A DNA stretch of 54,643 nt from a virus, in IMG/VR virus record IMGVR_UViG_3300031963_010135, positions 1 through 54,643 of that record, one strand, 5' to 3'. Under the pieces are notes generated by a model, which saw only the letters and a list, made by a program, of their open reading frames with translations, had not been told where the DNA came from and did not search any database. Made by a program: the position numbers and the translations under genes. Shown here piece after piece: positions 4,161-53,132 of this stretch (position 1 is its first letter; every line of letters begins with the position of its first letter).

Positions 4161-4190
4161 TGTGGATATTTATGAAATAAAGTCCACATG
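4161..4190 (+). promoter_or_regulatory. Late promoter motif inside an inverted repeat touching the start codon
   Basis: GATATTTATG at 4165-4174 ends exactly 13 nt before the ATG at 4188. Perfect 6-bp arms TGTGGA (4161-4166) and TCCACA (4183-4188) flank it, and the right arm includes the A of the ATG. Transcripts entering from upstream could fold and hide the start, while transcripts starting at the motif would lack the left arm. Confidence 0.5.
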
Positions 4191-5333
4191 TCACTTATAA
4201 TAGAAAATGCTGAAAAACAGAAATTATTCAGACAGGTCAGACACAGATTGGGTGCTCCACTTAGAAAAATTGAGTTGGATGATGAACAAATGTGTACTTT
4301 ATTGGAAATTGCTATAGAGGACCACTCTTCATTTGTTAATGAATGGTTAATTGAAACTCAATGGTCGTCATTAGACGGTATTAATTTAAGTACGGCAGAT
4401 TTAAGTAAAGCTTTAACAACAAGAAGTTTAAACTATGAGGATTCCTTTACTTATGCCTATTCAAAAATTGTGGGTTTACAGGCAAGAGGTCCTTGGGAAT
4501 TAAAACAAGATTACGTCGTTTTAGAAAATGGTAGACAAGTTTATCAAATACCTGCGGGTAGGGAAATAAACGAAGTATTATATTTCCAACCACCCACAGT
4601 TGATTATGCGTTATACTCAAACTATGGTTTTGGTGATTACGGTTTTGGTGGTGGTGTTGCTCAATTACCGTATGGTGCTGCAGGTGGTGGGTTTGGTTAT
4701 GGTGGATTTTATTTGGCACCAGCATACGATATTGTATTAAGAAATGCTGATTATAATTTAAAACAAAGAATTGTCAGTTCTCAATTAACTTATTGGGTGA
4801 CTGGAGGACCAAACGGAACTAAATTATTACATTTATCACCACCCCCAGGTAGTAGATTATCTTTTGGTGGTGCTGGATTTGCTGGAGGTCAAAAAATAAA
4901 TGTAGGTGGTAGTAAAGTTTGGTATTGGTATTATGAAACAACCTCTGATGAAGAAAGACAAAGATGTCTTAATGCTAACAAAGATATTGTTAAATTACCT
5001 TCAGATGTTCCTGTAGATGTTGTTAACTATACAGAACTTAATTCACCATCCAAACAATGGGTTAGGGATTGGTTTACCGCTTTATGTAAAGAAACCCTAG
5101 GACGTGTTAGAGGTAAATTTGGTGGTGCTTTAGGTGTTACAGATGCTGAAGTCACCATGGATTATGAATCCTTATTAAGTGAGGCTAAAGAAGATAGAAC
5201 CGTTTTAACGGAAAGATTAACAGAAAGATTAGAAAGACTACGTCCTGAAAATATGTTAACACGTAAGGCAACTGAAGCTGAACAATTAAATAAAGCATTA
5301 CAATACAGACCTTTAGGTATTACAGTAATATAA
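4188..5333 (+). CDS. Candidate gp13-like neck protein
   Basis: 381 residues. The N-terminus (FRQVRHRLGAPLRKIELDDEQ followed by LLEIAIEDH) matches the opening of T4-type gp13 head-completion proteins, where a 'LG.P...iel.ddQ...ai..al' pattern is typical. The C-terminal half has WVRDWFTALCKETLGRVRGK and a LLSEAKEDRTVLTERL helix, again as in gp13 relatives. An insertion rich in Gly, Tyr and Phe (about residues 140-185) is unusual. In T4, gp13 and gp14 close the head portal after packaging. Here it is separated from the gp14-like gene and faces the other way. It shares the sequence TAATG with the next start. Confidence 0.55.
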   Translation: MSLIIENAEKQKLFRQVRHRLGAPLRKIELDDEQMCTLLEIAIEDHSSFVNEWLIETQWSSLDGINLSTADLSKALTTRSLNYEDSFTYAYSKIVGLQARGPWELKQDYVVLENGRQVYQIPAGREINEVLYFQPPTVDYALYSNYGFGDYGFGGGVAQLPYGAAGGGFGYGGFYLAPAYDIVLRNADYNLKQRIVSSQLTYWVTGGPNGTKLLHLSPPPGSRLSFGGAGFAGGQKINVGGSKVWYWYYETTSDEERQRCLNANKDIVKLPSDVPVDVVNYTELNSPSKQWVRDWFTALCKETLGRVRGKFGGALGVTDAEVTMDYESLLSEAKEDRTVLTERLTERLERLRPENMLTRKATEAEQLNKALQYRPLGITVI

Positions 5334-8300
5334 TGGGTAATTTTTTTACACGTCCAAATTTTGAGGATCGTCAATTGGTACAATATAGTGGTACCAGTAT
5401 TACATTATCAGGTGAAACCAATATTTATCCAACTGGGTTATTAAGAATACAAAAAAATCCAGTACCTGGTTATGTTGCCACAGCTGCAGGTTGGGATGGT
5501 GAAGTTGTTTGGGGTCCAGTTAGTGGATTAACTTGGAATTTAAGTGCTAGTTGTAATAGTATAATAAACGTAACGCAATTAGTTGCGTGTACAGACTCTG
5601 GTAGTACAATACAAATCACATCGGGTGGTTTAACATTAAATGGTGGTACGGTACAATTTTTGGATTCACTTTCAGCGGGTACAGTTAATGATTATGTATT
5701 GGTAATTGATGGTAGTGGGTATGTTAAAAGTGTACCACAATCATCTATCACACCTATTTTTACAGGTGGTACTGGTTCGTGTATTGTTGATTTATACGTA
5801 ACAAATATTCACGGGTGTTCACCAATTAATATCCAACCAACATCATCAGATAATGTTTATATGGTTATGGGTGGTGGTAATGTAATGGTTGGTGGTACTA
5901 ACCCACAAACAAAATTTCATATTAGTGGTAGTACAATGTTCAACACTGATATCATATATCAATATGAAAATGACGGTACCACAACAGCACCCACAGTAGT
6001 TTCTGGTTTTAAAGGGAATTATATAAGTATGGATTATGGTACTGTAGGTACACAAGCTGTGGGTTATGCTGCAATAAATACTAGTAGTTCAGCCACATCC
6101 GTAGTTGCTTTATATAACAATTCATCCGCATTTGCTCAACTTTTTGTTGCAGGTTCTAATCAGATTAAAGTTAACCCAGGACCTGTGGGGCCCAATTTTT
6201 ATAGAAATAAAGTAGTATTAAGAACCGGACCAAGTGGTAGTACTGCTGGTATGGTTATTAATCCTGGTTCAGCCGATCCGTCAGCAACTTTATGGTTTGA
6301 AATTGATGGTGCCGCTAATATGATATTAAAGGGTGATGGTGCATCGGGAAGTGGTAATGGGTTTTTGGGTTTAAAATTAAATCCAGATGGAACAGAAATG
6401 CCAACCGCTAATTTACAAATTGGTGGTACCGGAACTACAGGTTCTTTTAAATTCATCGATGGAAATCAACAATCAGGATATGTATTAACTTCAGATTCTG
6501 GGGGTACGGCAACTTGGCAAGCACCAACTGGTGCTTCCGTTGTACCTTCACCATATATATTTGGATCACCGACATTATCTATTATACCTTTATCTGGTAA
6601 TAACACAACTTTATCAGAAGGTAGTATAATATTAGGTGGCACTGGTAACACAATAAGTGATGATAGTTCCCCACTATCAACAATTGTTAATGGTTTTTTT
6701 AATGATATATACGATTCCGATTATTCATTAATAAATGGTGGTTTGATTAACGTAATATCTGGACAATCTTACAATGTTATAACTAATGGTAGACAAAATA
6801 AAATTATATCTAGATCCACACTCACAAATCTTTCAGGTTGGAAAACAATTACTAACGGTCTACAAAACACAATTAATATAATATCTGGTGAAACTGGACA
6901 TGAAACCATAATAAATGGTAGACAAAACAATATATTAGGGACATCAACAAAATACTCAACAATAATAAACGGTGACAAAAACGTTATTAGTGGATCTTCA
7001 AGTGGTAACAAACACAATATAATATTAAACGGTGAAACCAACTCAATAAATGAAGGTAATTTTAACTTTATTACCGGTCAAAATAACAGATTAAATGAAA
7101 GTGGTCTTTCTGCAGCTTTTGGTGAATCGAATTTTATAAACAATAGTGACTATAGTTTTATATTTGGTTTTAACAATAAAATATTAGACGCCAATAATGG
7201 TGTTGGGAATTCGAGGATTATATTAGGATCCAATTCATTAATTAGTGGTCAAACAAGTAGTGTTGTTATATTAGGTGATAACATAACAGGAAACTCATCT
7301 AATACCGTTTATGTACCTTATTTAAACATTAAAAATATTGGTACAGGTTCTATTGTTTTTGGTTTAGGATTAGACGCAAATGGTAATGTTGTATCTGGTA
7401 ATACTGGTGGTAGTGGGGCCTTTACTGGTAACACTTCAGCTAGTTGTATTACGGATTTATGGGTTACAAATATTCATGGGTGTTCACCTATAACTATATG
7501 GGATCAGTTACAATATAATGGTAGCACAGCATCTACACAATATAGTACAGCTTTTGGTTTAAATACCTTATCTAGTGGAAATGGTAGTCATTCTCAAGGT
7601 TACCAAACAATAGCTAGTGGTGATTATTCACATGCAAGTGGTAGTGGTTCTACCGCTAGTGGTATTTATTCATTTGTACACGGTAACAATTCTATAGCCA
7701 GTGGTAATACAACAATTGTTTTAGGTTCAGGAATTATTGGTACTGAAGACAATACAGTTTATGTTAATAAATTAAATGTTAAAAATATTGGTACAGGTCC
7801 TACTATTTTTAGTTTAGGATTAGACACAAATGGTAATGTTGTATCTGGTAGTACAGTAGATAATGACGGTAGTAGAAATGTTTATTATGTCCCTAGTGGG
7901 GAAACATTTAATATTCCATTTGGAAAACAGGCTTTAGTTGTTGGTGATTTATTAGTAGATGGTGAAATAACAAATTCAGGTCAACTAGTGTTTGTTAATG
8001 GTTCTATTATATTATCGGGTGGAACTTATACTGATAATGGTGGTGATTTAATAAATTATGAATTTGAAGATGGTTCGGGAAATTCTTTATTAAATATAGC
8101 TAGTTTACAAGGTGTTAATTTTACGGGTATAAACACTGGTGATACTATTGTTTGGAATGGTACTAATTTTGTACCACAAGTATATTCACAGGCTACACCT
8201 TTTACTGGTAACACTTCAGCTAGTTGTATTACAGATTTATGGGTTAGTAACATTTATGGTTGTAACAATAATTTAAACATTACTGGTGACACATATATTG

Positions 8301-8647: not shown

Positions 8648-8658
8648 TAGTTAATTCT

Positions 8659-8698
8659 ATTTTATTTTAAAGAATATTTATTATAAAACAATAAAATG
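8659..8698 (+). promoter_or_regulatory. Late promoter motif with weak flanking inverted repeat
   Basis: AATATTTATT at 8673-8682 ends 13 nt before the ATG at 8696. Arms ATTTTATT (8659-8666) and AATAAAAT (8690-8697) are exact complements, and the right arm runs into the start codon. The arms are all A/T, so this hairpin could be chance. It supports a separate late promoter for the second fibre gene. Confidence 0.4.
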
Positions 8699-10165: not shown

Positions 10166-10177
10166 AAAATATAAATT

Positions 10178-10615: not shown

Positions 10616-10635
10616 CAAAAGTAAAAAAATAAATT

Positions 10636-10875: not shown

Positions 10876-10881
10876 AAAAAC

Positions 10882-14640: not shown

Positions 14641-16395
14641 ATGGACATCAAAAATAATTACTTTTTTAAAAATTTTGAGGCAATTAATATTGTTTACAAT
14701 GAGTATTGGGATTTTAATTTATCTTCAGATAGATTAGGTGATTATCTTGATTATGCAACAAACTGTAAAAATTCTTGTAATTATACAGTAATAACTGATG
14801 GTTTAGTTGTTTGGTTTGATATTAATGAAAGTAATACAACAACAGATGGTTCATCTTTAACTTCTTTAATTACATGGTCTGGTAGTACCATAATTCCGTC
14901 TACTGGTTTTACTTTAAATGATTGGGGTTTAACAGGTGTTGATAATGGTAGAACTTATTGTTTATCAGGTGAAACATTAGTTATCACACCTACAGATACA
15001 AAATTAGTGTTATATCCAGTCACAGGTTTAACTGTTGTATTTGATAGTACAGGTTGTACAACAACTAAAGGTCTTTATGATTATCCTTGGTCTTTTCATT
15101 CTAATACAACAACAACCGATGGTTGTATTGTTGGAGATACCATTTGTTTAAACGGAGGTTTTTATCAAGGGTTTTTTAAATTAGATACAGATAGACCAGC
15201 ACCAACTTCTGTTATGGATGTTGACGCATGTAATAATACAGGTTATACATTAACCACAACTTCAGCGACAACAAAATGGGAAATAATGCCAACGGAATTT
15301 CCTGTTGGTTGGTCGATGGAAACTTGGGTTAACGCTTCCAATGGTTATTGTTTAAATTTAACAGGAAATACTTTAAATGAACTATACCCAAACAATAAAG
15401 GATTTTTCTTTTATATTGGTACAAGGTCTGAAAATAAATTTTGGAATACTTTTTCTGGTGAATCTGGTTATAAAACAACAACAGGAATTCCTTTATCAAA
15501 CGACGAAGAAAAATTGTGGGATCAAAATTTACAAGGTCCTAATGACGGACAATCTTGGTTTACGGTAAAAGGAAGTACATTTTCTTGTTGTTGTGATGCT
15601 TGTGGTAATACAACAACTTATACCGATCCTAATATTATAACAGGTGGTCAAAATTGGTTTCAATACCAAGGTAGTGGGTTTTGTTGTCAAACTTGTAGTG
15701 CAACAACTACAACTGTTGTAACAGGTCATTCTTATTCTTATTGTGACCAATTATCAGAAAACGCTTTAGGTTTTAGAATTACAGATGACGGTAGAATAGG
15801 TTATCGTAAATTAACTGTTACAGGTGGGTGTTATAATAATGAATATAGAATAACTGGAACTGTAATGGAAGAAGGTTATTCCGAACCAAACATTATACCA
15901 TCTGGTAATACTTGGAATCATATTGTCGTAACATACACAGCTGGTGGTGGTTTTAAAAATGATTTACCTTCTGGTACACTTAAATTTTGGGTTAACGGAT
16001 TGGTTAAATATTCGGTTAAAGATTTTATCGGTTTACAACTTAGAGCTTTGGACGAATGGAGTGATAAACAAATAGGCGTACCGTTCAACATAAGTTGGGG
16101 TGGTGGTACACAAGGTTTATTGGAAAGTCAAACTTTTAACGGTCCTGATTACGCGGATAGAAATTTATTAATTCAAGAAAATTTTGCTGGCACTTTTGAG
16201 GGTGAATTATCACAATTAAGATTTTATGAAAAACCTTTAAATGTTTTAGAAGTTAGAAATAACTTTTTTATTGATTGTAAAAGATATTGTAAACCAAACA
16301 ATTTTGGTGGAGCACAAATTGTACAACCAAATAATAATAATTGTAGTGGTTGTAAAAGTCCATTACCACCGTATATTTTTATACCGTGTGATTGA
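14641..16395 (+). CDS. Cys-rich adhesin with a LamG/concanavalin-like domain
   Basis: 584 residues. The C-terminal third has the pattern of a laminin-G or concanavalin A-like domain: GNTWNHIVVTYT, GTLKFWVNGLVKYSV, then GELSQLRFYEKPLNVLEVRN. Such domains bind carbohydrates. An insertion near residues 315-375 is unusually Cys-rich (CCCDAC, FCCQTCS), and the C-terminus has further Cys residues (CNNNCSGCK-like spacing), suggesting metal binding or disulfides. The start at 14641 is the first ATG in frame. A ten-codon frame beginning at 14624 overlaps it. A virion receptor-binding protein is inferred. Confidence 0.6.
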   Translation: MDIKNNYFFKNFEAINIVYNEYWDFNLSSDRLGDYLDYATNCKNSCNYTVITDGLVVWFDINESNTTTDGSSLTSLITWSGSTIIPSTGFTLNDWGLTGVDNGRTYCLSGETLVITPTDTKLVLYPVTGLTVVFDSTGCTTTKGLYDYPWSFHSNTTTTDGCIVGDTICLNGGFYQGFFKLDTDRPAPTSVMDVDACNNTGYTLTTTSATTKWEIMPTEFPVGWSMETWVNASNGYCLNLTGNTLNELYPNNKGFFFYIGTRSENKFWNTFSGESGYKTTTGIPLSNDEEKLWDQNLQGPNDGQSWFTVKGSTFSCCCDACGNTTTYTDPNIITGGQNWFQYQGSGFCCQTCSATTTTVVTGHSYSYCDQLSENALGFRITDDGRIGYRKLTVTGGCYNNEYRITGTVMEEGYSEPNIIPSGNTWNHIVVTYTAGGGFKNDLPSGTLKFWVNGLVKYSVKDFIGLQLRALDEWSDKQIGVPFNISWGGGTQGLLESQTFNGPDYADRNLLIQENFAGTFEGELSQLRFYEKPLNVLEVRNNFFIDCKRYCKPNNFGGAQIVQPNNNNCSGCKSPLPPYIFIPCD

Positions 16396-17229: not shown

Positions 17230-20088
17230 ATGAGTAAAAAAGAAATTAAACAAGCAACACCCGAAGATATTAAGGTGTTTCTAGAAGGCCAAGACCCTGA
17301 AAAATATATTGTAGCCGTAGAGTTACCCCAAACTGGGGACTGGTCGGTAGATGAAACCGATAGAGTTTACACATTTATCGATGACCCTAAAAAGGGTAAA
17401 ATGATAAAAACCCAAAAATTTACACCTTTCTTATGGACAAAATCACTTAGAGGCAGTGGTTTCTATGGTGATGACATGGATAGAATGCGTGCTGAAGCCA
17501 AAAAATTCGGTATTTTCACAGAGAAACTTAGAACTGACGGTGATGAACGTTTAGAAGATGGTTTTAAATTTATTGTTAAAACTTCTGGTACATATAGAGA
17601 ATTAATAAACTTCTTTAAAAAAGGTGGTTTAGACCCTTGGAAAAGAAAAGACCTAATTCAAATGGTACAACCCATCGAACAGTTTATGATACAAACGGGT
17701 AAACGTTTATTTAAAGGTTTTGATGATTATACTGAGGTTCATAAGTTAGTATTTGATATTGAGACCACCTCATTAGATCCTGAAGATGGTCACATATTTT
17801 TGATTGGGATTAAAGACAATCGTGGTTTTCGTAAGATTATTGACTCCTATGATGAAAGTGGTAATTGGAGTGAAGAAACTGAACGTAGAATGTTAAAAGA
17901 ATTTTTTAACATTTTACATGAACGTAATGCTTCTATTATTACAGGTTATAATTCAGAAAACTTTGACTGGAAGTATATCTTAGGTAGAATGAGAATCTTA
18001 GGTATTAGTAATGAAGCTTTTGTTATTAGTAAGATAGGTGATAAAACAACCACAATAAACACTAAAGGTATTATTAAAACAAGACATCCTGAAATACCTA
18101 TGTATCGTAAAACAGCGTCCCTTAAGTTAGGTGCTGAATTAGAAAAATATGAACAAACAGTTATGTGGGGTATTAACATTTTAGATACTTTACATAGGGT
18201 TAGACAGGCACAGGCATTAAATTCAAACTTAAAAGAGGCAGGTTTAAAATATATCGCTAAAGAAGCCAAAGTAGAAAGACCTAATCGTGTTTATGTGGAC
18301 GGGGGTCAATTAGGTAGAATGTGGGTTCAGAATAAAAAATATTGGTACAACCCAACTAGTGGTCAATGGTATGATTTAGATGGTATTAAACCTGAACCTA
18401 AATTATTTGAAGATAAAAAAGGTGAGATGGTTGTTATTGATGGTTATGAAGATAAGTGGGAAGAGGTTGACGGTAGATTTTTAATTACAGAATATCTTAC
18501 GGATGACTTGTTGGAAACTGAGCAAGTAGATGATATTTACACACAAGCAGGTTTTTTAACGGCAGCTTTAGTACCAACAACATTTAACCGTTCAATAACT
18601 ATGGGTACGGCAACAATGTGGAAATTATTAATGATGTCTTGGTCTTATGAAAATGGTTTGGCATTACCTGATATACTACCCAAAAGAGATTTCACAGGTG
18701 GTTTATCGAGGTTATTACACTTAGGGTATAGTAAGAAGGTGGCTAAATTTGACTACGCATCACTTTATCCGTCCATACAATTAACACATGAAGTATTCCC
18801 AAGTTGTGACATTACAGGAGCTTTGAGAGCCATGTTAAAATATCTTTCTGATACTCGTAATAAGTATAAAAAATTAATGAATGACGAGGCAGCAAAAGGT
18901 AATATGAAATTATCATCTATGTATGACAAAAAACAATTACCTATTAAAATTTTAAATAACTCAGCTTTTGGTTCTATTTCAGCACCTTATATTTTTCCTT
19001 GGGGTGATATTGATATAGGTGAAATGATTACTTGTACAGGTAGACAATACCTTCGTTTAATGATTAAATTTTTCATGGATAGAGGTTATACACCTTTAGT
19101 GTTAGATACTGATGGTGTTAACTTTTCATGTCCTGAAGATGTTGAAAATAGAACGTATAATGGTAAGGGTTTACATCGTTTTGTTAAAAAAGATGAGGTT
19201 TATACAGGTATAGATGCAGATGTTGCTGAATATAATGAAAGATATATGTTTGGTGCTATGGGTCTTGATATCGATGATATTATGGACGCTACCATTAACT
19301 TGTCTAGAAAGAATTATGCCATTCTAAAACCAAGTGGTAAAGTTAAATTAACAGGTAATACTATTAAGGGTAAAACAATACCTAAATATATTGAGAAATT
19401 CTTAGCTAAGGCTATTAGATTATTATTGGATGGTAAAGGTAAAGAATTTGTTGATTTTTATTATGGGTATTTAGAAAAAATTTATAATAAACAAATACCT
19501 TTAGTTGATATAGCTAACAAATCTAAAGTTAAAAAAACCGTTCAATCGTACCTTAAAAGAGGTTTGGATAAAAATGGTAGAGACTTACCAAGACAGGCCC
19601 ACATGGAATTAATAATTCGTGATAACATTCATGTTAATTTAGGTGATACTTTGTATTATGTTAATAACGGTAGTCGTAAATCACATGCCGATATTTCTTT
19701 CAGTAAGACTAAAAAAACACCTGAAGGTGAACTTAAATTTAACTGTTATTTAATTACAGAAGACCAAATTAAGAAAAATCCCGATTTGACTGGTGATTAT
19801 AATGTACCAAAATACATTGAAGCTTTTAATAAAAAAGTTGAGCCACTTTTAGTTGTATTCCCATTACATATTAGAGAGTCGTTAATTATAGATAACCCTG
19901 AAAATAAACAATTTTTCACATCTAAGGAATTAGAACTAATAGGTGGTGTAGCAACTAACCCTGAAGACCAAGATACATTGGAGGAACTTATGACTATGAG
20001 TGATAGTGAGATTAAATTTTGGGATTTAAATGGTAAACCTTCAAATTATATGATAAAGGATCGTTTTGAAGAATTACAAGAAAATTAG
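17230..20088 (+). CDS. Family B DNA polymerase, T4 gp43 type
   Basis: 952 residues with both the proofreading and polymerase parts. Exo I is FDIETT with D176 and E178. Exo II is the TGYNSENFDWKYI segment near 238-250. Exo III lies near LTDDLLETEQVDDIY (about 420-435). Motif A is DYASLYPS with D508. Motif B is KILNNSAFGSI around S578, with Ala-Phe in place of the more usual Leu-Tyr. Motif C is DTDG at 626-629. No intein or intron is visible. It is the replicative polymerase of the phage, and no sliding clamp or clamp loader lies nearby. A hairpin precedes it and a strong inverted repeat follows. Confidence 0.95.
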   Translation: MSKKEIKQATPEDIKVFLEGQDPEKYIVAVELPQTGDWSVDETDRVYTFIDDPKKGKMIKTQKFTPFLWTKSLRGSGFYGDDMDRMRAEAKKFGIFTEKLRTDGDERLEDGFKFIVKTSGTYRELINFFKKGGLDPWKRKDLIQMVQPIEQFMIQTGKRLFKGFDDYTEVHKLVFDIETTSLDPEDGHIFLIGIKDNRGFRKIIDSYDESGNWSEETERRMLKEFFNILHERNASIITGYNSENFDWKYILGRMRILGISNEAFVISKIGDKTTTINTKGIIKTRHPEIPMYRKTASLKLGAELEKYEQTVMWGINILDTLHRVRQAQALNSNLKEAGLKYIAKEAKVERPNRVYVDGGQLGRMWVQNKKYWYNPTSGQWYDLDGIKPEPKLFEDKKGEMVVIDGYEDKWEEVDGRFLITEYLTDDLLETEQVDDIYTQAGFLTAALVPTTFNRSITMGTATMWKLLMMSWSYENGLALPDILPKRDFTGGLSRLLHLGYSKKVAKFDYASLYPSIQLTHEVFPSCDITGALRAMLKYLSDTRNKYKKLMNDEAAKGNMKLSSMYDKKQLPIKILNNSAFGSISAPYIFPWGDIDIGEMITCTGRQYLRLMIKFFMDRGYTPLVLDTDGVNFSCPEDVENRTYNGKGLHRFVKKDEVYTGIDADVAEYNERYMFGAMGLDIDDIMDATINLSRKNYAILKPSGKVKLTGNTIKGKTIPKYIEKFLAKAIRLLLDGKGKEFVDFYYGYLEKIYNKQIPLVDIANKSKVKKTVQSYLKRGLDKNGRDLPRQAHMELIIRDNIHVNLGDTLYYVNNGSRKSHADISFSKTKKTPEGELKFNCYLITEDQIKKNPDLTGDYNVPKYIEAFNKKVEPLLVVFPLHIRESLIIDNPENKQFFTSKELELIGGVATNPEDQDTLEELMTMSDSEIKFWDLNGKPSNYMIKDRFEELQEN

Positions 20089-20093: not shown

Positions 20094-20130
20094 TTTAAGT
20101 TTTCTTTGATATTTATAAAGAAAACTTAAA
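20094..20130 (+). promoter_or_regulatory. Late promoter motif in the loop of a 14-bp perfect inverted repeat
   Basis: Arms at 20094-20107 (TTTAAGTTTTCTTT) and 20117-20130 (AAAGAAAACTTAAA) are exact complements. The 9-nt loop is GATATTTAT, the core of the late motif. The right arm ends one base before the ATG at 20131, and the 10-nt motif (20108-20117) is again 13 nt from the start. No T-run follows, so this is not a standard terminator. It is the clearest case of the hairpin-plus-motif arrangement in the window. Confidence 0.7.
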
Positions 20131-20790
20131 ATGTTTATATCTAAGAAAATAATACAAGAATTGGTTAATAAAGACGGCGGTAAGTTAGGTAGTGACAATG
20201 TCAAATTAAGTGTAGACAATTCTAAATCGGCCTCCAATAGTACCATGGATCCTATGTTTGATCCTAAAGATGGTGACCAAATAAAAAACTCATCAATACA
20301 AAGTACAAGACAACAAGGTTATAGAGGGTGGTACTCTCTTGTACCTATGCCTGCTGTTAAAACACCTATGAGAAATAGTATAGATGTTGATGATAATATT
20401 AGTTACATGGATGACGAAAAAGAAAAAACTTGTAAACATTGTAAAGGTGAAGGTTGTAAAATATGTGCAAAAAATAAACTAAAAGAATCTTCTAAGAAAA
20501 AAATGGAAGAATATGTTGAGGATATTGTTTCTAAAAAAATATCTAAAGACGTTTTAGATAAAGTTAGAAAAGACGGAGATATTAGAAAAAATGGTATTCC
20601 TGACATTGATATTATTGCGGAAGAAAATCCGGTTTTGGTTAGAAAAACCAAAAATCTTATTGACGCCATTAAAACCAATTTGGCAACAGGTGAAGAAAAA
20701 GGTGTTATATTAAACTTCTTAATAACCAATATAGATACCATGGATATTCCAACAGAATATAAACAAGAAATGTTAAAAAAATTAAGATAA
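20131..20790 (+). CDS. Small protein with CxxC-type zinc knuckle, unknown function
   Basis: 219 residues. The first 90 residues are polar and low in complexity, with SLVPMPAVKTPMRNS. A short CKHCKGEGCKIC motif (about 98-109) looks like a zinc knuckle of the DnaJ-like CxxCxGxGC type, but only one unit is present. The C-terminal half is helical and Lys-rich, ending EYKQEMLKKLR. It is the first gene after the 14-bp inverted repeat, so it is probably expressed late. Start codons and stops overlap with the following gene. Role unknown; scaffold or virion is plausible. Confidence 0.5.
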   Translation: MFISKKIIQELVNKDGGKLGSDNVKLSVDNSKSASNSTMDPMFDPKDGDQIKNSSIQSTRQQGYRGWYSLVPMPAVKTPMRNSIDVDDNISYMDDEKEKTCKHCKGEGCKICAKNKLKESSKKKMEEYVEDIVSKKISKDVLDKVRKDGDIRKNGIPDIDIIAEENPVLVRKTKNLIDAIKTNLATGEEKGVILNFLITNIDTMDIPTEYKQEMLKKLR

Positions 20791-21347: not shown

Positions 21348-21670
21348 CTGACGCTAACAGTGTTCAGGATATGGGACCAGGTGGTGTCTTAAACCAATTA
21401 CCTAGTTTAAAAGCTACAGCTGATAGTGAAAGAGTAAAATTAACTGTCTTAAATGATTACAAAGATAATAATAATGACAGATATAATGCACAACACCCTA
21501 ATGCTTTAAGTGATATGGATGAAAAAGGTCGTGGTGAAACTAACAACCAAGTAGGTACTAAAACAGACATTATGACCAAAAATACTTTATTATACTCATC
21601 AGGTAATAAGTACAAACCTGGTAACGGAAATGGGTATAATAACATATCATACCCAGAGCAACATTGGTAA
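21317..21670 (+). CDS. Small virion-type protein, unknown function
   Basis: 117 residues, polar, with few hydrophobic stretches: PILTDANSVQDMGPGGVLNQ, then DYKDNNNDRYNAQHPNALS and a Gly/Asn-rich end (GNKYKPGNGNGYNNI). No domain or motif is recognised. It starts inside the preceding gene and ends 19 nt before the endonuclease-like gene's Met, so the insertion did not cut it. Composition suggests a structural or scaffold component. Confidence 0.4.
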   Translation: MPAQTISPILTDANSVQDMGPGGVLNQLPSLKATADSERVKLTVLNDYKDNNNDRYNAQHPNALSDMDEKGRGETNNQVGTKTDIMTKNTLLYSSGNKYKPGNGNGYNNISYPEQHW

Positions 21671-21689
21671 AATAGCACCCAAATTAATT

Positions 21690-22793
21690 ATGAACACAAA
21701 AACATATGATTTTATTAGTAAATCAAAAATAATACATAACTCAAGTTATGATTATTCTTTAGTAGAATATTATAATAATTATACTAAAGTTAAAATTATA
21801 TGTCCAAGTCACGGTGTTTTTGAGTGTACACCCAATAATCATTTAAGTAAGAAAAGTGCTTGTCCATCTTGTGCTAAAAATAAATTATCAAAGTTATTTG
21901 CTAATAGTAAAGAAAATGTGATAAACGGGTTTAAAAAAATACACGGTTATAAGTATGATTACTCTTTAGTTAATTATATAAACACAAACACAAATGTAGA
22001 TATCATATGTCCAATACACGGTAAATTTTCACAAAAACCAAAGTTACATTTAAAAGGTTGTGAATGCCCTAAATGTTCAGATACCAGATCCTCTAAAGAA
22101 ATTTTTATAAATAAAGCAACATCAAAACATGGGTCTAGATATGATTATTCAATGGTTAATTATGTGAACAACTACACCAAAGTAGATATACTATGTAACC
22201 AACACGGTGTTTTTAAACAAAAACCAACTAGCCATATAAACGGTTGTGGGTGTCCTATATGTTATAAAGAAAGTTTATTTCATACTACAGAAGTTTTTAT
22301 TGAATTAGCCAAAAAAGTCCATAAAAACAAATACGATTATAAATACCTTAAATATGTGGATTCAAAAACAAAAGTGGTTATCACATGTCCTAAACACGGT
22401 GAATTCAATCAAAAACCAAATAACCATTTAAACGGTTCTGGTTGCCCAAGTTGTAACACATCTAAAGGTGAATTAATGATTAAGGGTTTTTTAGATGATA
22501 ATTTGATTAATTATATACAACAACACAGTTTTCCTAATTGTAGGTATAAATTACCTTTAAAATTTGATTTTTACTTACCGGATTATAATACATGTATTGA
22601 ATACGATGGTGTACAACACTTTAGACCACATAACTTAGATAAAAGTGGTATCGAGTTCGAAAGGACTAAAAAATGTGACGAAATTAAAGATAATTATTGT
22701 AAAAAAAATAATATAAAACTGATACGTATTAAATATAATGATAATTATGATTTATATGAACTATTTATTAAAAACAATATATCGGTAAGATGA
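21690..22793 (+). CDS. Homing-endonuclease-like protein, four DUF723-type repeats plus PD-(D/E)xK-like domain
   Basis: 367 residues from ATG 21690; longer in-frame starts overlap the previous gene. Four ~60-residue repeats share F..K....H...YDYS.V.Y.N...KV.I.CP.HG.F.Q.P..HL, then C..C. The Cys/His spacing suggests zinc-binding DNA contacts. The C-terminal ~100 residues have KGELMIKGFLDDNLI, KLPLKFDFYLPDYNTCIEYD and GVQHF, then IKLIRI, a layout like the Vsr/PD-(D/E)xK nucleases used by some free-standing homing endonucleases. A second copy is at 48674. It ends in ATGA overlap with the next gene. Mobility is inferred. Confidence 0.75.
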   Translation: MNTKTYDFISKSKIIHNSSYDYSLVEYYNNYTKVKIICPSHGVFECTPNNHLSKKSACPSCAKNKLSKLFANSKENVINGFKKIHGYKYDYSLVNYINTNTNVDIICPIHGKFSQKPKLHLKGCECPKCSDTRSSKEIFINKATSKHGSRYDYSMVNYVNNYTKVDILCNQHGVFKQKPTSHINGCGCPICYKESLFHTTEVFIELAKKVHKNKYDYKYLKYVDSKTKVVITCPKHGEFNQKPNNHLNGSGCPSCNTSKGELMIKGFLDDNLINYIQQHSFPNCRYKLPLKFDFYLPDYNTCIEYDGVQHFRPHNLDKSGIEFERTKKCDEIKDNYCKKNNIKLIRIKYNDNYDLYELFIKNNISVR

Positions 22794-26642: not shown

Positions 26643-27137
26643 ATGTCGGTAGTAGCGGTAAAAATAGGTAAAAATAAAATAACCATAGGTGCTGATAGTA
26701 TATTAGTTAATGGTTATACACAGGAAAAAGATAAACTAGCCAAACTTTTCAAAAACGAATGGATGGTGGTTGGTGATGTTGGTGAAGCACAAGAAGGAGC
26801 TTTATTCCAAATTTTTTCTAAGACAAGGAAACCTAGGGAGGCCTCGGTAGAAGCTATAACAGAATATTTATTCGATTTTTTTCAATGGAAAAGGGAAAAA
26901 ACTGATGCCGATAAATTAGAAAATAGTTATATTATTATATTTGAAAGTAAGGCATTTTTAGTAGAAGGTTTTTATGTTAAAGAAATAACAGATTATGCCG
27001 CAATTGGTGCGGGTATGGATTTTGCTTTGGCCGCTTTATATTTAGGTTCTTCAGTTAGTGACGCCATTAAAACAGCATGTCATTTATCAATACTTTGTGA
27101 AGAACCAATAAACATAATAGAAGTAGAAAAGAAATGA
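26643..27137 (+). CDS. HslV-like proteasome-family peptidase with Ser as the N-terminal nucleophile
   Basis: 164 residues. The start SVVAVKIGKNKITIGADS, then KDKLAKLF, matches the opening of HslV (TTIVAVR...GGD...K..KV..L). Numbering from Ser after Met removal gives Ser1, Asp17 and Lys33, the HslV catalytic positions with Thr1 replaced by Ser. The segment AIGAGMDFALAALYLG matches the HslV 'GSGG.fAlaAA' signature. No HslU partner is in the window. It could form a ring peptidase acting in prohead maturation or protein turnover; this is inference. It overlaps the next gene by four bases. Confidence 0.8.
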   Translation: MSVVAVKIGKNKITIGADSILVNGYTQEKDKLAKLFKNEWMVVGDVGEAQEGALFQIFSKTRKPREASVEAITEYLFDFFQWKREKTDADKLENSYIIIFESKAFLVEGFYVKEITDYAAIGAGMDFALAALYLGSSVSDAIKTACHLSILCEEPINIIEVEKK

Positions 27138-38992: not shown

Positions 38993-38993
38993 T

Positions 38994-46924: not shown

Positions 46925-46932
46925 TTTAAAAA

Positions 46933-47733
46933 ATGGCAGAAAATAAAACAACAATTATAATTCCAATCCATAAAATGGATGACACTCTAAGTTCTTATTT
47001 TGAAAAGGCTATAAAAAGTGTTGAAAATCAAAAAATTAACCCAGAAGAAGTTATTATTGTAACAGCAAAAGGTGTTAAAATTAATGAAGAATATTTAAAA
47101 AACGTAAATTATAGAATAGTAGTTAATGAAGGTAATACTGATTTTTGTTCACAAATTAATTTTGGTGTTGAACAAGTTAAAACCACTTTCTTTTCTATAT
47201 TAGAAGTTGATGACGAGTATTCAAAAATATGGTTTGATAATGTTAACAAATATGTAGAGGCTTACGATGAAACAGATGTTTTCTTACCAATTGTTTTAGA
47301 TGTAAGTCCTGAAGGTCGTTTTTTACATTTTAGTAATGAACCTGTATGGGCTAAAGACTTTTCTGATAAATTAGGGTTTTTAGACAATGATGCTTTATTG
47401 AACTTCCCCAACTTTCAATTGTCGGGTGCTGTTATTAAGGTAGACGCTTTCAAAGCCGTGGGTGGTTTAAAACCTAGTATTAAACTTCACTTTATATATG
47501 AGTTTTTATTAAGAATGACTTATTATGATAAAAAAATAATGACCATCCCTAAATTAGGGTATAAAAAAGTTAATATGAGACCAGATTCTTTATTTTTTAA
47601 TTATCAAAATAAAGAAACGGATAAAATCGATGTTATTGAGGCCAGATTTTGGTTTAGTACTTCCCGTAAGGAATGTTATTTTAAAGCCGATAGAAACATA
47701 AAGTTTGATAGAGAGATTTCTACAATAGTATAA
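46933..47733 (+). CDS. GT2-like glycosyltransferase
   Basis: 266 residues. TIIIPIHKMDDTLSSYFEKA, then FSILEVDDEYSKIW (VDDE as the metal site) and QLSGAVIKVDAFKAVGGLK show the GT2 core. It has a short C-terminus with FWFSTSRKECYF. It is co-transcribed with the gene before it and touches the sigma-factor gene (TAATG). Confidence 0.75.
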   Translation: MAENKTTIIIPIHKMDDTLSSYFEKAIKSVENQKINPEEVIIVTAKGVKINEEYLKNVNYRIVVNEGNTDFCSQINFGVEQVKTTFFSILEVDDEYSKIWFDNVNKYVEAYDETDVFLPIVLDVSPEGRFLHFSNEPVWAKDFSDKLGFLDNDALLNFPNFQLSGAVIKVDAFKAVGGLKPSIKLHFIYEFLLRMTYYDKKIMTIPKLGYKKVNMRPDSLFFNYQNKETDKIDVIEARFWFSTSRKECYFKADRNIKFDREISTIV

Positions 47734-48506
47734 TGTCCACAGAAAGAAAAAGAGGAAGAAAACCGTCAAAAGATCCTTATTTTGGACATGTAGAAGAATT
47801 AGCTGTTAAAGAATTTTTATCTTTAGGTAGTTTAATACATGATTCAAAATCATTAGAGGGATACAGATGGACTGGTAGTACAAAAGATGAATTTAGAAGA
47901 AATGAAATTTATCGCCAACACTTACAAGCTCCATTAAATAAAATGATAGAAAGTATCATTAGAAGATATAAGTTATATTCTAAAAGTATGACTTTTGAAG
48001 ATTTACATTCTGATACACTATCATTTTTAATGATGAAATTTCATAAATTTAAACCATCAAAAGGTAAAAAATCATATTCTTATTATGGTACTGTTTGTAA
48101 ACATTATTTATTAGGTAAACTAATAAAAGATGATAAAAAACTAAAAACTTTGATATCATATGAAGATATCGCCCCAGATTTAGAAGAAAATGAAGAATAC
48201 TCTTATGAGATAGATAATCAAGAACTAGATTTAACTTTATTAATAGATGAAATATCAACTTCAATTAAAGAAGAATTACAAAATAAAATTTTAACCGAAA
48301 ATGAAATAAAAGTTGGTAACGCTTTGGTTTCTATTTTGGAAAATTGGGAAAATGTTTTTGAGGGTAAGGAAGCGACTAATAAGTATAATAAAAATTTAAT
48401 TCTTTATTATATGAGAGAAATGACATCACTAAGTACCAAAGATATTAGAAACGCAATGAAAAGATATCGTGGTATTTATAAGTTTATAAAAGATGGTGGT
48501 TTGTAA
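47733..48506 (+). CDS. Candidate gp55-like late sigma factor
   Basis: 257 residues. LNKMIESIIRRYKLYSKSMT, then FEDLHSDTLSFLMMKFHKFK, PSKGKKSYSYYGTVCKHYLL and GKLIKDDKK resemble sigma region 2 and the gp55 family core (the '.dl..da...l...f.kFdp.kg..f.sy......' pattern). The N-terminus is basic and the C-terminus (MREMTSLSTKDIRNAMKRYR) may be a DNA- or clamp-contacting helix. In T4, gp55 directs host RNA polymerase to late promoters. This is the likely reader of the GATATTTATA sites. A terminator overlaps its stop. Confidence 0.75.
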   Translation: MSTERKRGRKPSKDPYFGHVEELAVKEFLSLGSLIHDSKSLEGYRWTGSTKDEFRRNEIYRQHLQAPLNKMIESIIRRYKLYSKSMTFEDLHSDTLSFLMMKFHKFKPSKGKKSYSYYGTVCKHYLLGKLIKDDKKLKTLISYEDIAPDLEENEEYSYEIDNQELDLTLLIDEISTSIKEELQNKILTENEIKVGNALVSILENWENVFEGKEATNKYNKNLILYYMREMTSLSTKDIRNAMKRYRGIYKFIKDGGL

Positions 48507-48519
48507 AAACCACCATTTT
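48493..48519 (+). terminator. Intrinsic terminator overlapping the sigma gene stop
   Basis: Stem ATGGTGGTTT (48493-48502) pairs exactly with AAACCACCAT (48507-48516) around a GTAA loop. Four T residues follow (48516-48519). The stop codon TAA (48504-48506) lies in the loop. Directly downstream is a GATATTTATA late motif. Confidence 0.8.
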
Positions 48520-48529
48520 GATATTTATA
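48520..48529 (+). promoter_or_regulatory. Late promoter motif
   Basis: GATATTTATA, exactly 13 nt before the ATG at 48543. It follows the terminator at once, so a new transcript would begin here for the next module. The overlapping word TATAAATA (48526-48533) also equals the T4 late box on the same strand. Confidence 0.55.
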
Positions 48530-48542
48530 AATAAAAGAAATC

Positions 48543-48644: not shown

Positions 48645-48658
48645 AAAACCATTTACCT

Positions 48659-48668
48659 TATATTTATA
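48659..48668 (+). promoter_or_regulatory. Promoter-like motif before the second endonuclease-like gene
   Basis: TATATTTATA lies 5 nt before the ATG at 48674 and touches an alternative ATG at 48668. The spacing is not the usual 13 nt, so the site is only a possible promoter. Confidence 0.25.
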
Positions 48669-48673
48669 TGTAT

Positions 48674-49576
48674 ATGCCTAAAAAATTAACAACATATGAT
48701 TTCATAAATAAGGCAAATAAAATACACCATAATGTGTATGATTATTCTTTAGTTGATTACGTTAACACAAATACTAAAGTTAAAATAATATGTAACATTC
48801 ATGGTGTTTTCGAACAACGTCCATGTTCACATATAAAACAAAAACACGGATGTCCTTATTGTGCTAAAAATAAAAAGTTATCTACAGAGGTTTTTATCCG
48901 TGAGGCTAAAAAAATACATAAAAATAAGTACGATTATTCTTTATCTGAATATGTTGATTGTTGTTCTACTAAAATAAAAATTATATGCCCAAATCATGGT
49001 ATTTTTGAACAAAGATCGTGTGATCATCTATTGAAAAAATGTGGGTGCCCACATTGTAGTAATAACCAAAAACTAACAACTAATATTTTCATAGATAGAG
49101 CAAATAAAATACATAATAATAAATTTGACTATTCATTAGTGGATTATGTGAATTCACATAAAAAAGTATTTATTATATGCCCAAATCATGGTATTTTTGA
49201 ACAAAAACCATATAGCCATTTACAGGGTTTTGGATGTAAAATGTGTAATGTATCTAAGGGTGAACTGAGGATTAAAAAAATTTTAGAAGAAGAAAAAATT
49301 AAATATATACAACAACACAGTTTTCCTGATTGTAAAAATAAATTCCCTCTAAAGTTCGATTTTTATCTACCAAAACTCAACGTATGTATTGAATATGATG
49401 GGTATCAACATTTTCAACCTCATTGGGGTGATCATAGTGGTAAAAATTTTATTAAAACCAAAGAAAGGGATGAAATTAAAAATAAATACTGTACAGAAAA
49501 TAATATTAAATTAATTAGAATTACTGATACGAATATAAATAACGAATTATGGCTAGACCAACTAAGAAAAAAATAG
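48674..49576 (+). CDS. Homing-endonuclease-like protein, three DUF723-type repeats plus PD-(D/E)xK-like domain
   Basis: 300 residues from ATG 48674. Three ~60-residue repeats show F..KA.KIH...YDYS.VDYVN...KV.IIC..HG.F.Q.P..H followed by a C..C pair. The C-terminal domain (KGELRIKKILEEEKI, KFPLKFDFYLPKLNVCIEYD, GYQHFQP, KLIRI) closely parallels the 21690 protein, and the stretch encoding 'YIQQHSFPDC' is nearly identical at DNA level. It has one repeat fewer than the first copy. It overlaps the next gene by 28 nt, so it sits directly at that gene's start. Confidence 0.75.
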   Translation: MPKKLTTYDFINKANKIHHNVYDYSLVDYVNTNTKVKIICNIHGVFEQRPCSHIKQKHGCPYCAKNKKLSTEVFIREAKKIHKNKYDYSLSEYVDCCSTKIKIICPNHGIFEQRSCDHLLKKCGCPHCSNNQKLTTNIFIDRANKIHNNKFDYSLVDYVNSHKKVFIICPNHGIFEQKPYSHLQGFGCKMCNVSKGELRIKKILEEEKIKYIQQHSFPDCKNKFPLKFDFYLPKLNVCIEYDGYQHFQPHWGDHSGKNFIKTKERDEIKNKYCTENNIKLIRITDTNINNELWLDQLRKK

Positions 49577-49944
49577 AGTTAACTAAACAAAGTTTTCAAA
49601 TTGTGGCTCAGGAGGCCTACAATGAACTTGTAGAACAAAGAAGTACATGTATTAGGACAATTAACGAAAACAAAAACAAAGTTAATGTTGAAGATATGCA
49701 TGATTTAACCAATTTAAACAAAGCTAATACTGACCTTCTTAAAATTATTGATTCTACCATTGATAAAAAAATATCCTTGGTTAAACTAATGAGCCAACTA
49801 ATTTTTAAAGGTGGTGAATCCGATACTGGTGGAAATGGAAATGGTTCTTTAACACCTGAAGATATGGCTTTATTACGTAATATTTTTAATGAAGGTGACG
49901 ATAAAGAGGGTGGGAATGATAAAAAAAACTATAACATTAAATAA
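49549..49944 (+). CDS. Small coiled-coil protein, possible terminase small subunit or assembly factor
   Basis: 131 residues. MARPTKKKIELTKQSFQIVA, YNELVEQRSTCIRTINENKN, then a helix LTNLNKANTDLLKIIDSTID and LTPEDMALLRNIFNEG. The short basic start and long coiled-coil resemble small terminase subunits, but no large terminase is near, so this stays a guess. Its N-terminus matches the 48543 remnant. It ends one base inside the next ATG. Confidence 0.4.
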   Translation: MARPTKKKIELTKQSFQIVAQEAYNELVEQRSTCIRTINENKNKVNVEDMHDLTNLNKANTDLLKIIDSTIDKKISLVKLMSQLIFKGGESDTGGNGNGSLTPEDMALLRNIFNEGDDKEGGNDKKNYNIK

Positions 49945-51389
49945 TGGGGTTTATTGACGATAAAACACAATCTATTAATAATGTGGCTTTATTAGAAGTG
50001 TTAAACAACTTGCCAAAAAGTAAAGTAACATCTTCATTGGAGTCTGTGAACTCAAAAAGTAAAAATTTATTACCTTTTTTATTAGATTTATTAAGTACTA
50101 CTTGTAAAGATAAAGATAAAAATAATAGAGCAAAATGTGAGGCAACAAGTATATTAACTGATATTTTGGTTGAATTTTATCCGGTGTTAATTAGAATTCT
50201 AAAAGATGGTATTAATAAAGGTATAAAATCTTGTTTAGCCTGTGGTGTAGATTTTAAAATACCAAGCAATAATCCACCATCTATTAGGGTTAAAGTAAAT
50301 AATATTGATTTTGGTGATTTATTAAAAATTAACCCAAATAGTAAAATAGGTTCTATGTTTTATAATAAAAGTCCTAATGAAGATTTTAATTGGTTTTTAT
50401 ATAATTTAATACAAACAGGTGGTTCTGGTAGTTGGAAAAATATTGACGGTGTTAATATTGTAGATGTTACTTATTTTAATACCAGTCAAGAATTTGAAAT
50501 GTCTGTCAGTCAACCTTATCATGGCAAATCTTTTAATAAATTTTTGTTTGATTATACAAACTCTATCGATTTAATACCATTACAAAACATGTTACCTAAA
50601 ATTAATGATATGATGACAGGATCACTAACATCAAATTTGGAAGGTATAAATTTTAGTTTGGATAAATTAATTAGTATTGAAAAAATTAATGTTTTACAAG
50701 ATAAAATAAATAATTCAGATCCTTGTAAAGAGGAATATACTTACGATGATAGTTATTTTTCATTTACGAATGAAGAAAATTTTGAAGTGGAAAATACGTC
50801 AAACCAAAAAAAAGTTGGTGTTGTTTACTTGGATTTGGGTTGTGGTACCTTACCAGTAACATCTTCACCAGATGTTATGAAAAATATTTCTGACAACATA
50901 TTAAATACACCAGTTTCTAAAGTAGATGTCGTAATAAAACAATCAATTAATTTAATGAACGATAATTTGACTATTAACGTCCCAGATGAGGATAGAACTG
51001 TAGCTAAACAATCATTAAATTTAAAAATGATTGAATCTTTACCTAAAGTATTTACTAGTGTTATTTTGGAACCTAAAATAGTATCACTATATCAACTATC
51101 TTCAAAAACTGTTAACGATACAACAGTAGATGAAACAAATGGTTTTGATTTTGTTAAAATAACTAGAGTTTTTTTTGAATACGTAACTAGAGAAAGTCTA
51201 GCTGCCTTAGTTGAGATTGTTTTTAAAAGAGTTAAAAAAGAAATATTAGCCTTAGTTGAAGAAATAACTTTAAAAATAGTTAAGGAAAAAGTTAAAATAA
51301 GAATAAAATCAATAAATAGTATAATATCAGGGGCTTCAAATGGTTTATTAAATACCATACCAACACCCAACTCATCAAAATATATTTAA
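49944..51389 (+). CDS. Large structural-type protein, unknown function
   Basis: 481 residues. The first ~100 residues are helical with Cys residues (LLPFLLDLLSTTCKDKDKNN, KSCLACGVDF). The centre has a beta-rich section (SIRVKVNNIDFGDLLKIN, VGVVYLDLGCGTLPV). The C-terminus is helical (LVEIVFKRVKKEILALVEEI, TLKIVKEK). Position before a gp5-like spike gene points to a baseplate or tail part. No family is recognised. Confidence 0.45.
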   Translation: MGFIDDKTQSINNVALLEVLNNLPKSKVTSSLESVNSKSKNLLPFLLDLLSTTCKDKDKNNRAKCEATSILTDILVEFYPVLIRILKDGINKGIKSCLACGVDFKIPSNNPPSIRVKVNNIDFGDLLKINPNSKIGSMFYNKSPNEDFNWFLYNLIQTGGSGSWKNIDGVNIVDVTYFNTSQEFEMSVSQPYHGKSFNKFLFDYTNSIDLIPLQNMLPKINDMMTGSLTSNLEGINFSLDKLISIEKINVLQDKINNSDPCKEEYTYDDSYFSFTNEENFEVENTSNQKKVGVVYLDLGCGTLPVTSSPDVMKNISDNILNTPVSKVDVVIKQSINLMNDNLTINVPDEDRTVAKQSLNLKMIESLPKVFTSVILEPKIVSLYQLSSKTVNDTTVDETNGFDFVKITRVFFEYVTRESLAALVEIVFKRVKKEILALVEEITLKIVKEKVKIRIKSINSIISGASNGLLNTIPTPNSSKYI

Positions 51390-51390
51390 T

Positions 51391-51819
51391 ATGGCAAAGT
51401 GTAAAGATATAGATCCAAACAAAACCGACTTTAAAAATCCCAACTCGGTTTTAAACTCACTTTTAAATTTATTTAAAATAGCCTCTACTAGATCAAGAGC
51501 CATCCCCAACCCTTTAATACTGGCCTCAAAAGCCAGACCAGGATTAAGCCCTTCAAAAATTGCAGCAAAAATAATACAAAGACAAGCTGAAGCCGGTATA
51601 CCAGTAGGTCCATTACCGAGTGGTGAAATTTCACCTGACGAAATTATGGAAAAAATTAGAGTAGAAGAAATAGTCAATGCTATAACATCAGAAATGGTGA
51701 TAGATGTTGCCATACAACCAGGTACTATTATACAAGGTACTGGTGGTAATGCAGGGGGGCCGGTACAAGTTGCCGGTACTGTTGTTGGTATAGCTTCTGG
51801 TAACGCTACAGCTAGATAG
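51391..51819 (+). CDS. Small virion-type protein, unknown function
   Basis: 142 residues. FKNPNSVLNSLLNLFKIAST, PSKIAAKIIQRQAEAGIPVG, then a Gly/Val/Ala-rich end (IIQGTGGNAGGPVQVAGTVV). It lies one base after the previous gene's stop and two bases before the next, in a tight baseplate-type run. It may be a tail-tube or baseplate component; no family signature is seen. Confidence 0.4.
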   Translation: MAKCKDIDPNKTDFKNPNSVLNSLLNLFKIASTRSRAIPNPLILASKARPGLSPSKIAAKIIQRQAEAGIPVGPLPSGEISPDEIMEKIRVEEIVNAITSEMVIDVAIQPGTIIQGTGGNAGGPVQVAGTVVGIASGNATAR

Positions 51820-51821
51820 TT

Positions 51822-52004
51822 ATGGAAAAAATTAAAAATAAAAGTAATGCCGAACTTATTGAAATGCAAAAAAAATTAAAAGATGAGTTTGAAAAAGTTA
51901 GAATTGATTTGGTCAAAATCTATGATTATTGGTCTTTAATCGAAAAAAAATATAATGAAATAAATAATGAATTAAACGATAGATTTGGAATTAACAACAA
52001 ATGA
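51822..52004 (+). CDS. 60-residue coiled-coil protein
   Basis: Almost all Lys/Glu/Asn/Leu with heptad-like spacing: NAELIEMQKKLKDEFEKVRI, DLVKIYDYWSLIEKKYNEIN. The stop overlaps the next start (ATGA). It is probably a small chaperone or baseplate helper, by position only. Confidence 0.45.
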   Translation: MEKIKNKSNAELIEMQKKLKDEFEKVRIDLVKIYDYWSLIEKKYNEINNELNDRFGINNK

Positions 52005-53092
52005 GTGACGAAAGAAGATACGACCTTGGTTATGCGGATTCAAGATTGGATAAAATGTCATTTCCGTTATGGTATTACGGTGTAGTAATAAGAATTGATG
52101 ATCCTTACGATGCGGGACGTATTAAGGTTAGACTTGAGGGTGTTGATAAAAACATTGTTTTACAAGGTGGTGGCAATAGTAAACAACAAAATCAAAACTT
52201 GGGTAATAACGAAACTGATGCTTATTTGCCTTGGTGTGAACCTTTATTACCTAAATTTCTTAACATGATACCTAAAGTCGGTGAAATGGTTAAGGTGGCT
52301 GTTTTTGATTATCGTAATAAACAACAAAGAAGGCAATATATTGGTCCTGTTATTGGACAAGAAAACCCTTTAGATTACCAACAAAGTAATTACAATGTAG
52401 CTAAAATACAAGTAGAAAATTCTGGTTATAACCCTGCTATAAGTAAATGGCCAGATTCTAAACAAGGTGTTTGGGGGGTATATCCTAATAAAAGTGATAT
52501 AGCTTTATTAGGTAGAAGAAATACTGATTTAATATTAAGAAATAAATCTAATTATGATGAAATAATATTAAGATCAGGTAAGATTGATTATAGAAATTTA
52601 AATCAACCTTATCCGGTAAGTTTAAACAAAAAAAACCCTGCTTATGTAACAATTAACCATACTTTTCCTAAAAAAAATAAAACAACAACACAAATAGGAT
52701 TAGGTTTGAATGATGATAGGACACATGTTAATTTAGTTGCTGATAAATTAAATTTAATAAGTCATATGGGATCATCTTCTAAAGGTAAATCTCCGGCTAT
52801 ATTAAATGGTGATAACATAGATTTACAAATTATTACCGAAAACAGTAAATTACACCCAGTTATCTATGGTGACCTTATTTGGGATATGTTGGAAAAATTA
52901 AGGGCTTATGTTGAGGGTCACATTCATAAAGCTTCTAGGAGAGAACCTGATGGTGATAAAACAAAAAACGATTTAATAAAATGGTTTAACCAAAACATGG
53001 GTACAAGAAAAACAAAGTTAAACCCAGATGGTACCTCTTATATAGATTATGAAAACTGTAAGTTCTTAAGTAAAGGTGTTAAAACAAATTAA
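52001..53092 (+). CDS. gp5-like baseplate hub/spike protein with OB fold
   Basis: 363 residues. The N-terminal OB domain is recognised by WYYGVVIRIDDPYDAGRIKV, RLEGVD, then LPWCEPLLPKFLNMIPKVGE followed by MVKVAVFD and IGPVIGQ. In T4-type gp5, this OB fold sits on the gp27 hub and carries the spike. The middle has a short YVTINHTFPKK region, and no lysozyme domain is visible here, unlike T4 gp5. The C-terminus (WDMLEKLRAYVEGHIHKASR) is helical. A baseplate spike with the cell-wall-degrading domain elsewhere is likely. Confidence 0.75.
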   Translation: MSDERRYDLGYADSRLDKMSFPLWYYGVVIRIDDPYDAGRIKVRLEGVDKNIVLQGGGNSKQQNQNLGNNETDAYLPWCEPLLPKFLNMIPKVGEMVKVAVFDYRNKQQRRQYIGPVIGQENPLDYQQSNYNVAKIQVENSGYNPAISKWPDSKQGVWGVYPNKSDIALLGRRNTDLILRNKSNYDEIILRSGKIDYRNLNQPYPVSLNKKNPAYVTINHTFPKKNKTTTQIGLGLNDDRTHVNLVADKLNLISHMGSSSKGKSPAILNGDNIDLQIITENSKLHPVIYGDLIWDMLEKLRAYVEGHIHKASRREPDGDKTKNDLIKWFNQNMGTRKTKLNPDGTSYIDYENCKFLSKGVKTN

Positions 53093-53132
53093 TTCCCGAT
53101 GATATTTATAGTAAAAAAGATTAATGGGAATT
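53091..53132 (+). promoter_or_regulatory. Late promoter motif inside an inverted repeat covering the start codon
   Basis: GATATTTATA at 53101-53110 ends 13 nt before the ATG at 53124. Arms AATTCCC (53091-53097) and GGGAATT (53126-53132) are exact complements; the G of the ATG is inside the right arm. Read-through mRNA from the spike gene could hide the start, while mRNA starting at the motif would not. Confidence 0.5.

Follow-up and report, generated by a model that had tools for sequence, protein, structure and literature searches.

A promoter-like motif within start-codon hairpins of a giant phage and its probable role in gating some late genes

In a 54.6-kb viral fragment (IMG/VR record IMGVR_UViG_3300031963_010135, positions 1 to 54,643, referred to here as the window; G+C 29.6 %), the motif GATATTTAT lies at several positions between the arms of an inverted repeat that reaches a start codon. 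An earlier note, made from the letters alone, had located four such repeats (20094–20130, 4161–4188, 53091–53132 and 8659–8697), and all four were confirmed at these positions. The note proposed that they act as in phage T4, where read-through RNA folds over the start of a late gene and RNA begun at a promoter inside the hairpin does not. The question addressed here is at which of these sites the pairing is maintained, and what the motif between the arms may do.

The source of the DNA and the motif upstream of its genes

The proteins of the window genes starting at 4188, 17230, 20131 and 53124 are 100 % identical to proteins of IMGVR_UViG_3300027793_000052, a 318-kb IMG/VR record (G002), and the window is therefore part of a giant phage. 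The host is probably a Bacteroidetes species. This is based on the ribosomal protein bS21 encoded by G002, on the nearest DNA polymerases from isolates, which are mostly those of Salinibacter phages, and on the near absence of Shine-Dalgarno sites, as AGGA is present within 20 nt upstream of only 7 of 307 ORFs. Freshwater phages of up to 331 kb that are predicted to infect Bacteroidetes also encode bS21 (PMC9723584). Neither a megablast search of phage records nor a search of Rfam gave a match.

There are seven copies of GATATTTAT in the window, compared to 2.6 expected, and seven were reached in 1 of 100 shuffles. Most of them are upstream of ORFs on the same strand. In five genomes, the spacing between motif and ORF start falls into two discrete classes, 3–8 nt (64 sites) and 12–24 nt (79 sites), with few sites in between. 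Sites of the short-spacing class have a T-tract 13–17 nt before the motif, and those of the long-spacing class have an A-run 13–15 nt after the first motif base. Short-class sites were found at 2303, 16394 and 48659 in the window, as well as in G002 and relatives, and the genes concerned are mostly of unknown function but include a helicase gene and the bS21 gene.

The sigma-ABfr promoter of Bacteroidetes has the −33/−7 sequences TTTG/TAHHTTTG, and the −7 element spans −12 (the T of TA) to −5 (the G) (PMC6847099). The phage motif resembles this promoter in AHHTTT and in the AT-rich upstream positions. However, A stands in place of the last G and the first T is frequently G. The strict −7 consensus is thus not matched, and a different sigma factor or one of the phage may read the motif. 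When aligned with the motif, the −7 consensus predicts a transcription start approximately 12 nt past the first motif base. On this prediction, mRNAs of the short class would be leaderless, and those of the long class would have a leader of several to about 12 nt. At 48492–48528 (+ strand), the motif (48520–48528) directly follows a terminator-like hairpin, GATGGTGGTTTGTAAAAACCACCATTTT, a promoter-after-terminator placement, and motifs directly after terminators were also found in L189, L194 and L198. From the likeness to the −7 element, the fixed distances to the ATG and the position after terminators, we infer that GATATTTAT is a promoter sequence and represents the −7-like element of late promoters in this phage. 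Read on the other strand, the core TATTTATA gives the T4 late promoter TATAAATA, but the orientation relative to the genes indicates that GATATTTAT is the sense reading here. Divergent back-to-back copies, in which one short palindromic stretch serves genes on both strands, are present at 118047/118051, 30598/30603 and 99356/99371 in G002.

Conservation of the motif, and its place in a hairpin loop near the ATG at some sites, could also mean that it is an RNA site, presented by the hairpin, for a translational repressor of the phage resembling RegA. We regard this as very improbable, because the motif is equally conserved where there is no hairpin, directly after terminators and 4–8 nt before other ATGs, all of which suits a promoter.

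G002 encodes, at 302809–303636 (L043:2809–3636), a clear sigma-70 factor in which regions 1.2, 2 and 4 are all present, and this protein is a candidate reader of the motif. No match to an RNA polymerase beta-subunit domain was found in G002. A search for a late sigma factor of the T4 type returned one strong sigma-70 in G002 and otherwise only a match below threshold, to the window ORF 47733–48506 (257 aa; Sigma70 region 2 at E 2e-4 when the genome was searched, but no hit in a Pfam scan), which is possibly a divergent late sigma factor. At 27134–47733 of the window, a number of enzymes predicted to act on sugars (glycosyltransferases, nucleotidyltransferase) are encoded in one co-directional block, together with a protein of the phosphoribulokinase/uridine kinase family.

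Inverted repeats that end at start codons

The longest of the four repeats (+ strand) consists of a left arm, TTTAAGTTTTCTTT (20094–20107), the motif as loop (20108–20116) and a right arm, AAAGAAAACTTAAA (20117–20130), and forms a perfect 14-bp stem directly before the ATG at 20131. The RNA fold has an energy of −14.6 kcal/mol (z −3.7). The putatively gated gene (20131–20790, 219 aa) has no Pfam match and only a weak PHROG match of unknown function. A family B DNA polymerase gene (17230–20088) is located upstream in the same direction and ends 19 nt before the motif. With transcription predicted to start near 20120, the left arm would be present in read-through RNA only. Both pairing and motif are kept in six distinct upstream sequences of this gene. 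The arms covary (TTTAAG.../...CTTAAA, TTTGAG.../...CTCAAA, ATCG.../...TGAT and others), including a change of AAG/CTT to GAG/CTC. The arms of this gene pair better with each other than with arms swapped between orthologues (−10.7 versus −7.2 kcal/mol, p=0.008). A short way downstream, at 21630–22793, there is a homing/HNH endonuclease-like gene (phrog_559).

The second repeat (+ strand) has a stem of 6 bp, and its fold alone is less striking (z −1.8). The left arm TGTGGA (4161–4166) shares its last two bases with the beginning of the motif (4165–4173, predicted start near 4177), and the right arm TCCACA (4183–4188) covers the A of the ATG. The putatively gated gene (4188–5333, 381 aa) has a partial match to head-tail adaptor Ad2 (phrog_211). 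A co-directional SNF2-type helicase gene (2320–4149) ends 15 nt before the motif, and its own motif is of the short-spacing class, ending 8 nt before the ATG. The motif was found in 43 of 45 distinct leaders of the 381-aa gene (80 loci fetched). In close relatives the arms differ in sequence yet remain complementary, and orthologues carry CGTTGTTG/CAACAATG, ATTGTTG/CAACGAT or TTCGGC/GTCGAA in place of TGTGGA/TCCACA. Own arms again outperform swapped arms (−5.3 versus −2.8 kcal/mol, p<5e-5). The same result was obtained over 43 leaders of this gene, also within the set with <60 % identity (p=0.0004).

According to the earlier note, retention of the motif without the pairing in related phages would speak against a gate. 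At the 381-aa gene, pairing is kept in the close clade but is often absent in more distant relatives. Among the latter, L121, L123 and L130 have strong hairpins of another sequence and many others have none. In approximately half of the distant orthologues the motif is retained but strong pairing is not, and L114, L119, L131 and L138, where the motif is kept and the pairing is not, count against a gate. As read from these leaders, the putative gate at this gene is a common feature of the close clade but is not found throughout.

A third case is the gene for the terminase large subunit, named from PHROGs, which lies outside the window (G002 126549–129704) and is split by an intein that carries a LAGLIDADG domain. 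In relatives with at least 80 % identity, 12 distinct leaders form a stem that extends to the ATG with its right arm, and own arms pair at −10.6 kcal/mol compared to −7.0 for arms swapped between orthologues (p<5e-5). For pair counts the arms were registered by hand, and MAFFT alignments A2–A4 were not used because gaps fell inside the arms. In eight sequences in fixed register, 93 of 96 cells are paired (87 Watson-Crick and 6 G.U), both sides have changed at 4 of the 12 pairs, and 0.18 % of arm permutations pair as well. On the sense strand there are 6 G.U pairs but 1 A.C, which fits an RNA of that strand, although this is supporting evidence only as the sequences are related.

Perfect dyad symmetry around a promoter is also what would be seen if the repeat were a DNA operator, with a dimeric repressor or activator controlling the promoter between the half-sites. 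An operator would conserve the sequence of its half-sites, whereas the arms vary among sites and among orthologues. Changes in one arm are compensated in the other, G.U pairs and bulges of one base occur, and the stems range from 6 to 14 bp. We therefore consider an operator quite unlikely. The compensatory changes and the advantage of own over swapped arms at all three genes instead bear out the proposal that structure rather than arm sequence is kept, and the covarying arms that the note had suggested looking for in related phages were seen at the 20131 and 4188 genes.

In a genome of 30 % G+C, palindromes can also arise by chance. Raw duplex energies looked equal at promoter sites and at random motif copies, but composition differs between the two, and the comparison of own with swapped arms was used for that reason. 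At 162 motif copies that have no ORF start downstream, pairing is no better with own than with swapped arms (−4.07 versus −4.02 kcal/mol, p=0.38), and random copies therefore show no excess pairing. For 132 promoter-type sites the values are −4.07 and −3.23 kcal/mol (z −5.7), in a set that includes orthologues and is not fully independent. The 15 sites of G008 alone show no excess pairing (p=0.42), though covarying orthologues exist. G002 contains only 13 perfect inverted repeats of at least 12 bp (loop 3–24); two of these end at the ATG of an ORF, each with the motif in its loop. In all strong cases the right arm ends within ATG−2 to +3. The swapped-arm tests, the random-copy control, this census and the compensatory changes at the 20131, 4188 and terminase genes make chance an extremely improbable source of these hairpins as a whole.

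Chance does account for the repeat at 8659–8697 (+ strand; ATTTTATT/AATAAAAT), which consists only of A and T around the motif AATATTTAT (8673–8681) and looks like chance level (z −0.1), and perhaps for that at 53091–53132 (+ strand; z −2.1). The latter is a candidate hairpin with a 7-bp stem, AATTCCC/GGGAATT, the motif at 53101–53109, the ATG at 53124 and a right arm that lies in the coding sequence behind the ATG. Relatives of 95 % identity retain the pairing, whereas L215 shows one mismatch and L214 no longer pairs. Of the four repeats proposed as gates of the T4 type, those at 20094 and 4161 are thus backed by covariation, as is the terminase site of relatives.

A putative gate on translation

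We think it likely, on sequence evidence, that a promoter in the loop of a start-codon hairpin gates a subset of late genes, such that read-through RNA is silent and late mRNA is translated. The gated sites would be some of the late genes that come directly after a co-directional early-type gene, and possibly some endonuclease genes. There the promoter is in the loop, and the stem extends to the ATG. RNA reading through from the upstream gene would contain both arms and fold, which would bury approximately the last 10 nt of the leader and in many cases part of the AUG as well. RNA started at the promoter would begin about 12–13 nt downstream of the first motif base and lack the left arm, and its A-rich leader would be single-stranded and translated. 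Initiation in Flavobacterium relies on adenines at −3, −6, −12 and −13 and low structure from −20 to +20 (PMC6847099), which is the stretch occupied by the right arm. The note's statement that there is no Shine-Dalgarno site to hide holds for the 20131, 4188 and terminase sites.

The predicted unpaired probability at −10 to +3 rises between the long and the promoter-started RNA from 0.09 to 0.70 at the 20131 gene, from 0.25 to 0.82 at the 4188 gene and from 0.19 to 0.55 at the terminase gene (mostly from 0.11–0.38 to about 0.5 in its relatives), a gain that is partly generic as hairpin-free sites also gain once the leader is shortened. Hairpin, covariation, ATG register, motif conservation and near absence of Shine-Dalgarno sites are features of the sequence, and the loss of the fold is computed; we infer promoter activity, start site, early or late timing and translational repression. 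The labels early and late are based on gene function and promoter class. At the best sites the upstream genes are co-directional and close, namely the DNA polymerase gene, the helicase gene and, 40 nt before the terminase motif in G002, a 923-aa gene that has a short-class motif like the helicase gene. These few sites hint at a possible association with early-to-late junctions. The proposal of repeated use stands for several genes, but use appears selective; gating of all motif sites was rejected, as most have no hairpin.

An alternative is that the hairpin acts as an intrinsic terminator. Read-through would then end immediately ahead of the transcript made from the promoter, and the insulation would be transcriptional. 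In distant relatives there are terminators before the same motif, and at two endonuclease genes (G002 25863 and G008 7993) TTTTT follows the stem before the ATG. The arms at the 20131, 4188 and terminase genes, however, are A/T-rich and are followed at once by the ATG with no long T-run, and we consider termination unlikely there. A strict rule that either a terminator or a hairpin is present was rejected. The terminase relatives L171, L179, L181 and L184 have both, and read-through may be low in these.

Comparison with T4 and endonuclease genes

In T4, the long early RNAs of e, soc, 49 and I-TevI fold and are silent, and the short late RNAs are open (PMC3014915, PMC2988022). The putative gates resemble those of e (lysozyme) and soc (PMC3014915) in that a late gene lies downstream of early transcription, a long RNA would fold and prevent initiation, and RNA from the late promoter would be without the stem's 5′ strand. 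As in T4, there is a stem across the start region, with compensatory change, at the 20131, 4188 and terminase genes. Motif position and −7 consensus predict a start that leaves out the 5′ arm. They differ in that T4 hides the Shine-Dalgarno site and/or the AUG, whereas here only an A-rich leader and the AUG can be hidden, and in that the T4 promoter TATAAATA is in the region encoding the 5′ strand, whereas GATATTTAT is in the loop. The genes are also different, a terminase, a putative head-tail adaptor and an unknown protein rather than lysozyme and Soc. With other genes, no TATAAATA on the sense strand and no sequestered Shine-Dalgarno site, the arrangement is not a T4 element by descent; it is very similar as a predicted mechanism but a separate variant.

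We give about even weight to the broader reading that giant, probably Bacteroidetes-infecting phages independently evolved a loop-promoter gate that hides only an A-rich leader and the start codon, and use it for packaging and structural genes and possibly for mobile endonucleases. If this is true, the way in which T4 deals with early read-through evolved a second time, with another promoter and without Shine-Dalgarno sites, and one promoter core serves two layouts, leaderless early-type mRNAs and short-leader late mRNAs, some of them gated. The hairpins would be natural test cases, backed by covariation, for control of Bacteroidetes initiation by structure near the AUG, and the sequence signature may help to tell early and late genes apart in giant phages that have not been cultured.

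In homing-endonuclease genes of T4 (I-TevI/II/III, segB) and Aeh1 (mobE), a hairpin covers the start region and a promoter is present (PMC2988022). Endonuclease genes are likewise among the best-scoring sites in G002 and G008, but the endonuclease families and the promoter are different and two of the stems are terminator-like. Candidate start hairpins may be present at several endonuclease genes of G002 (25863, 15463, 93267 and 108897), which are of the long-spacing class with good hairpin scores. The G008 7993 gene has a DUF559 domain and a terminator-like stem around the motif. At G002 15434–15493, an HNH endonuclease gene is preceded by a tRNA-like 3′ end (ARAGORN calls none) and by a rare Shine-Dalgarno-like AGGAGG that could pair with the tRNA-like stretch.
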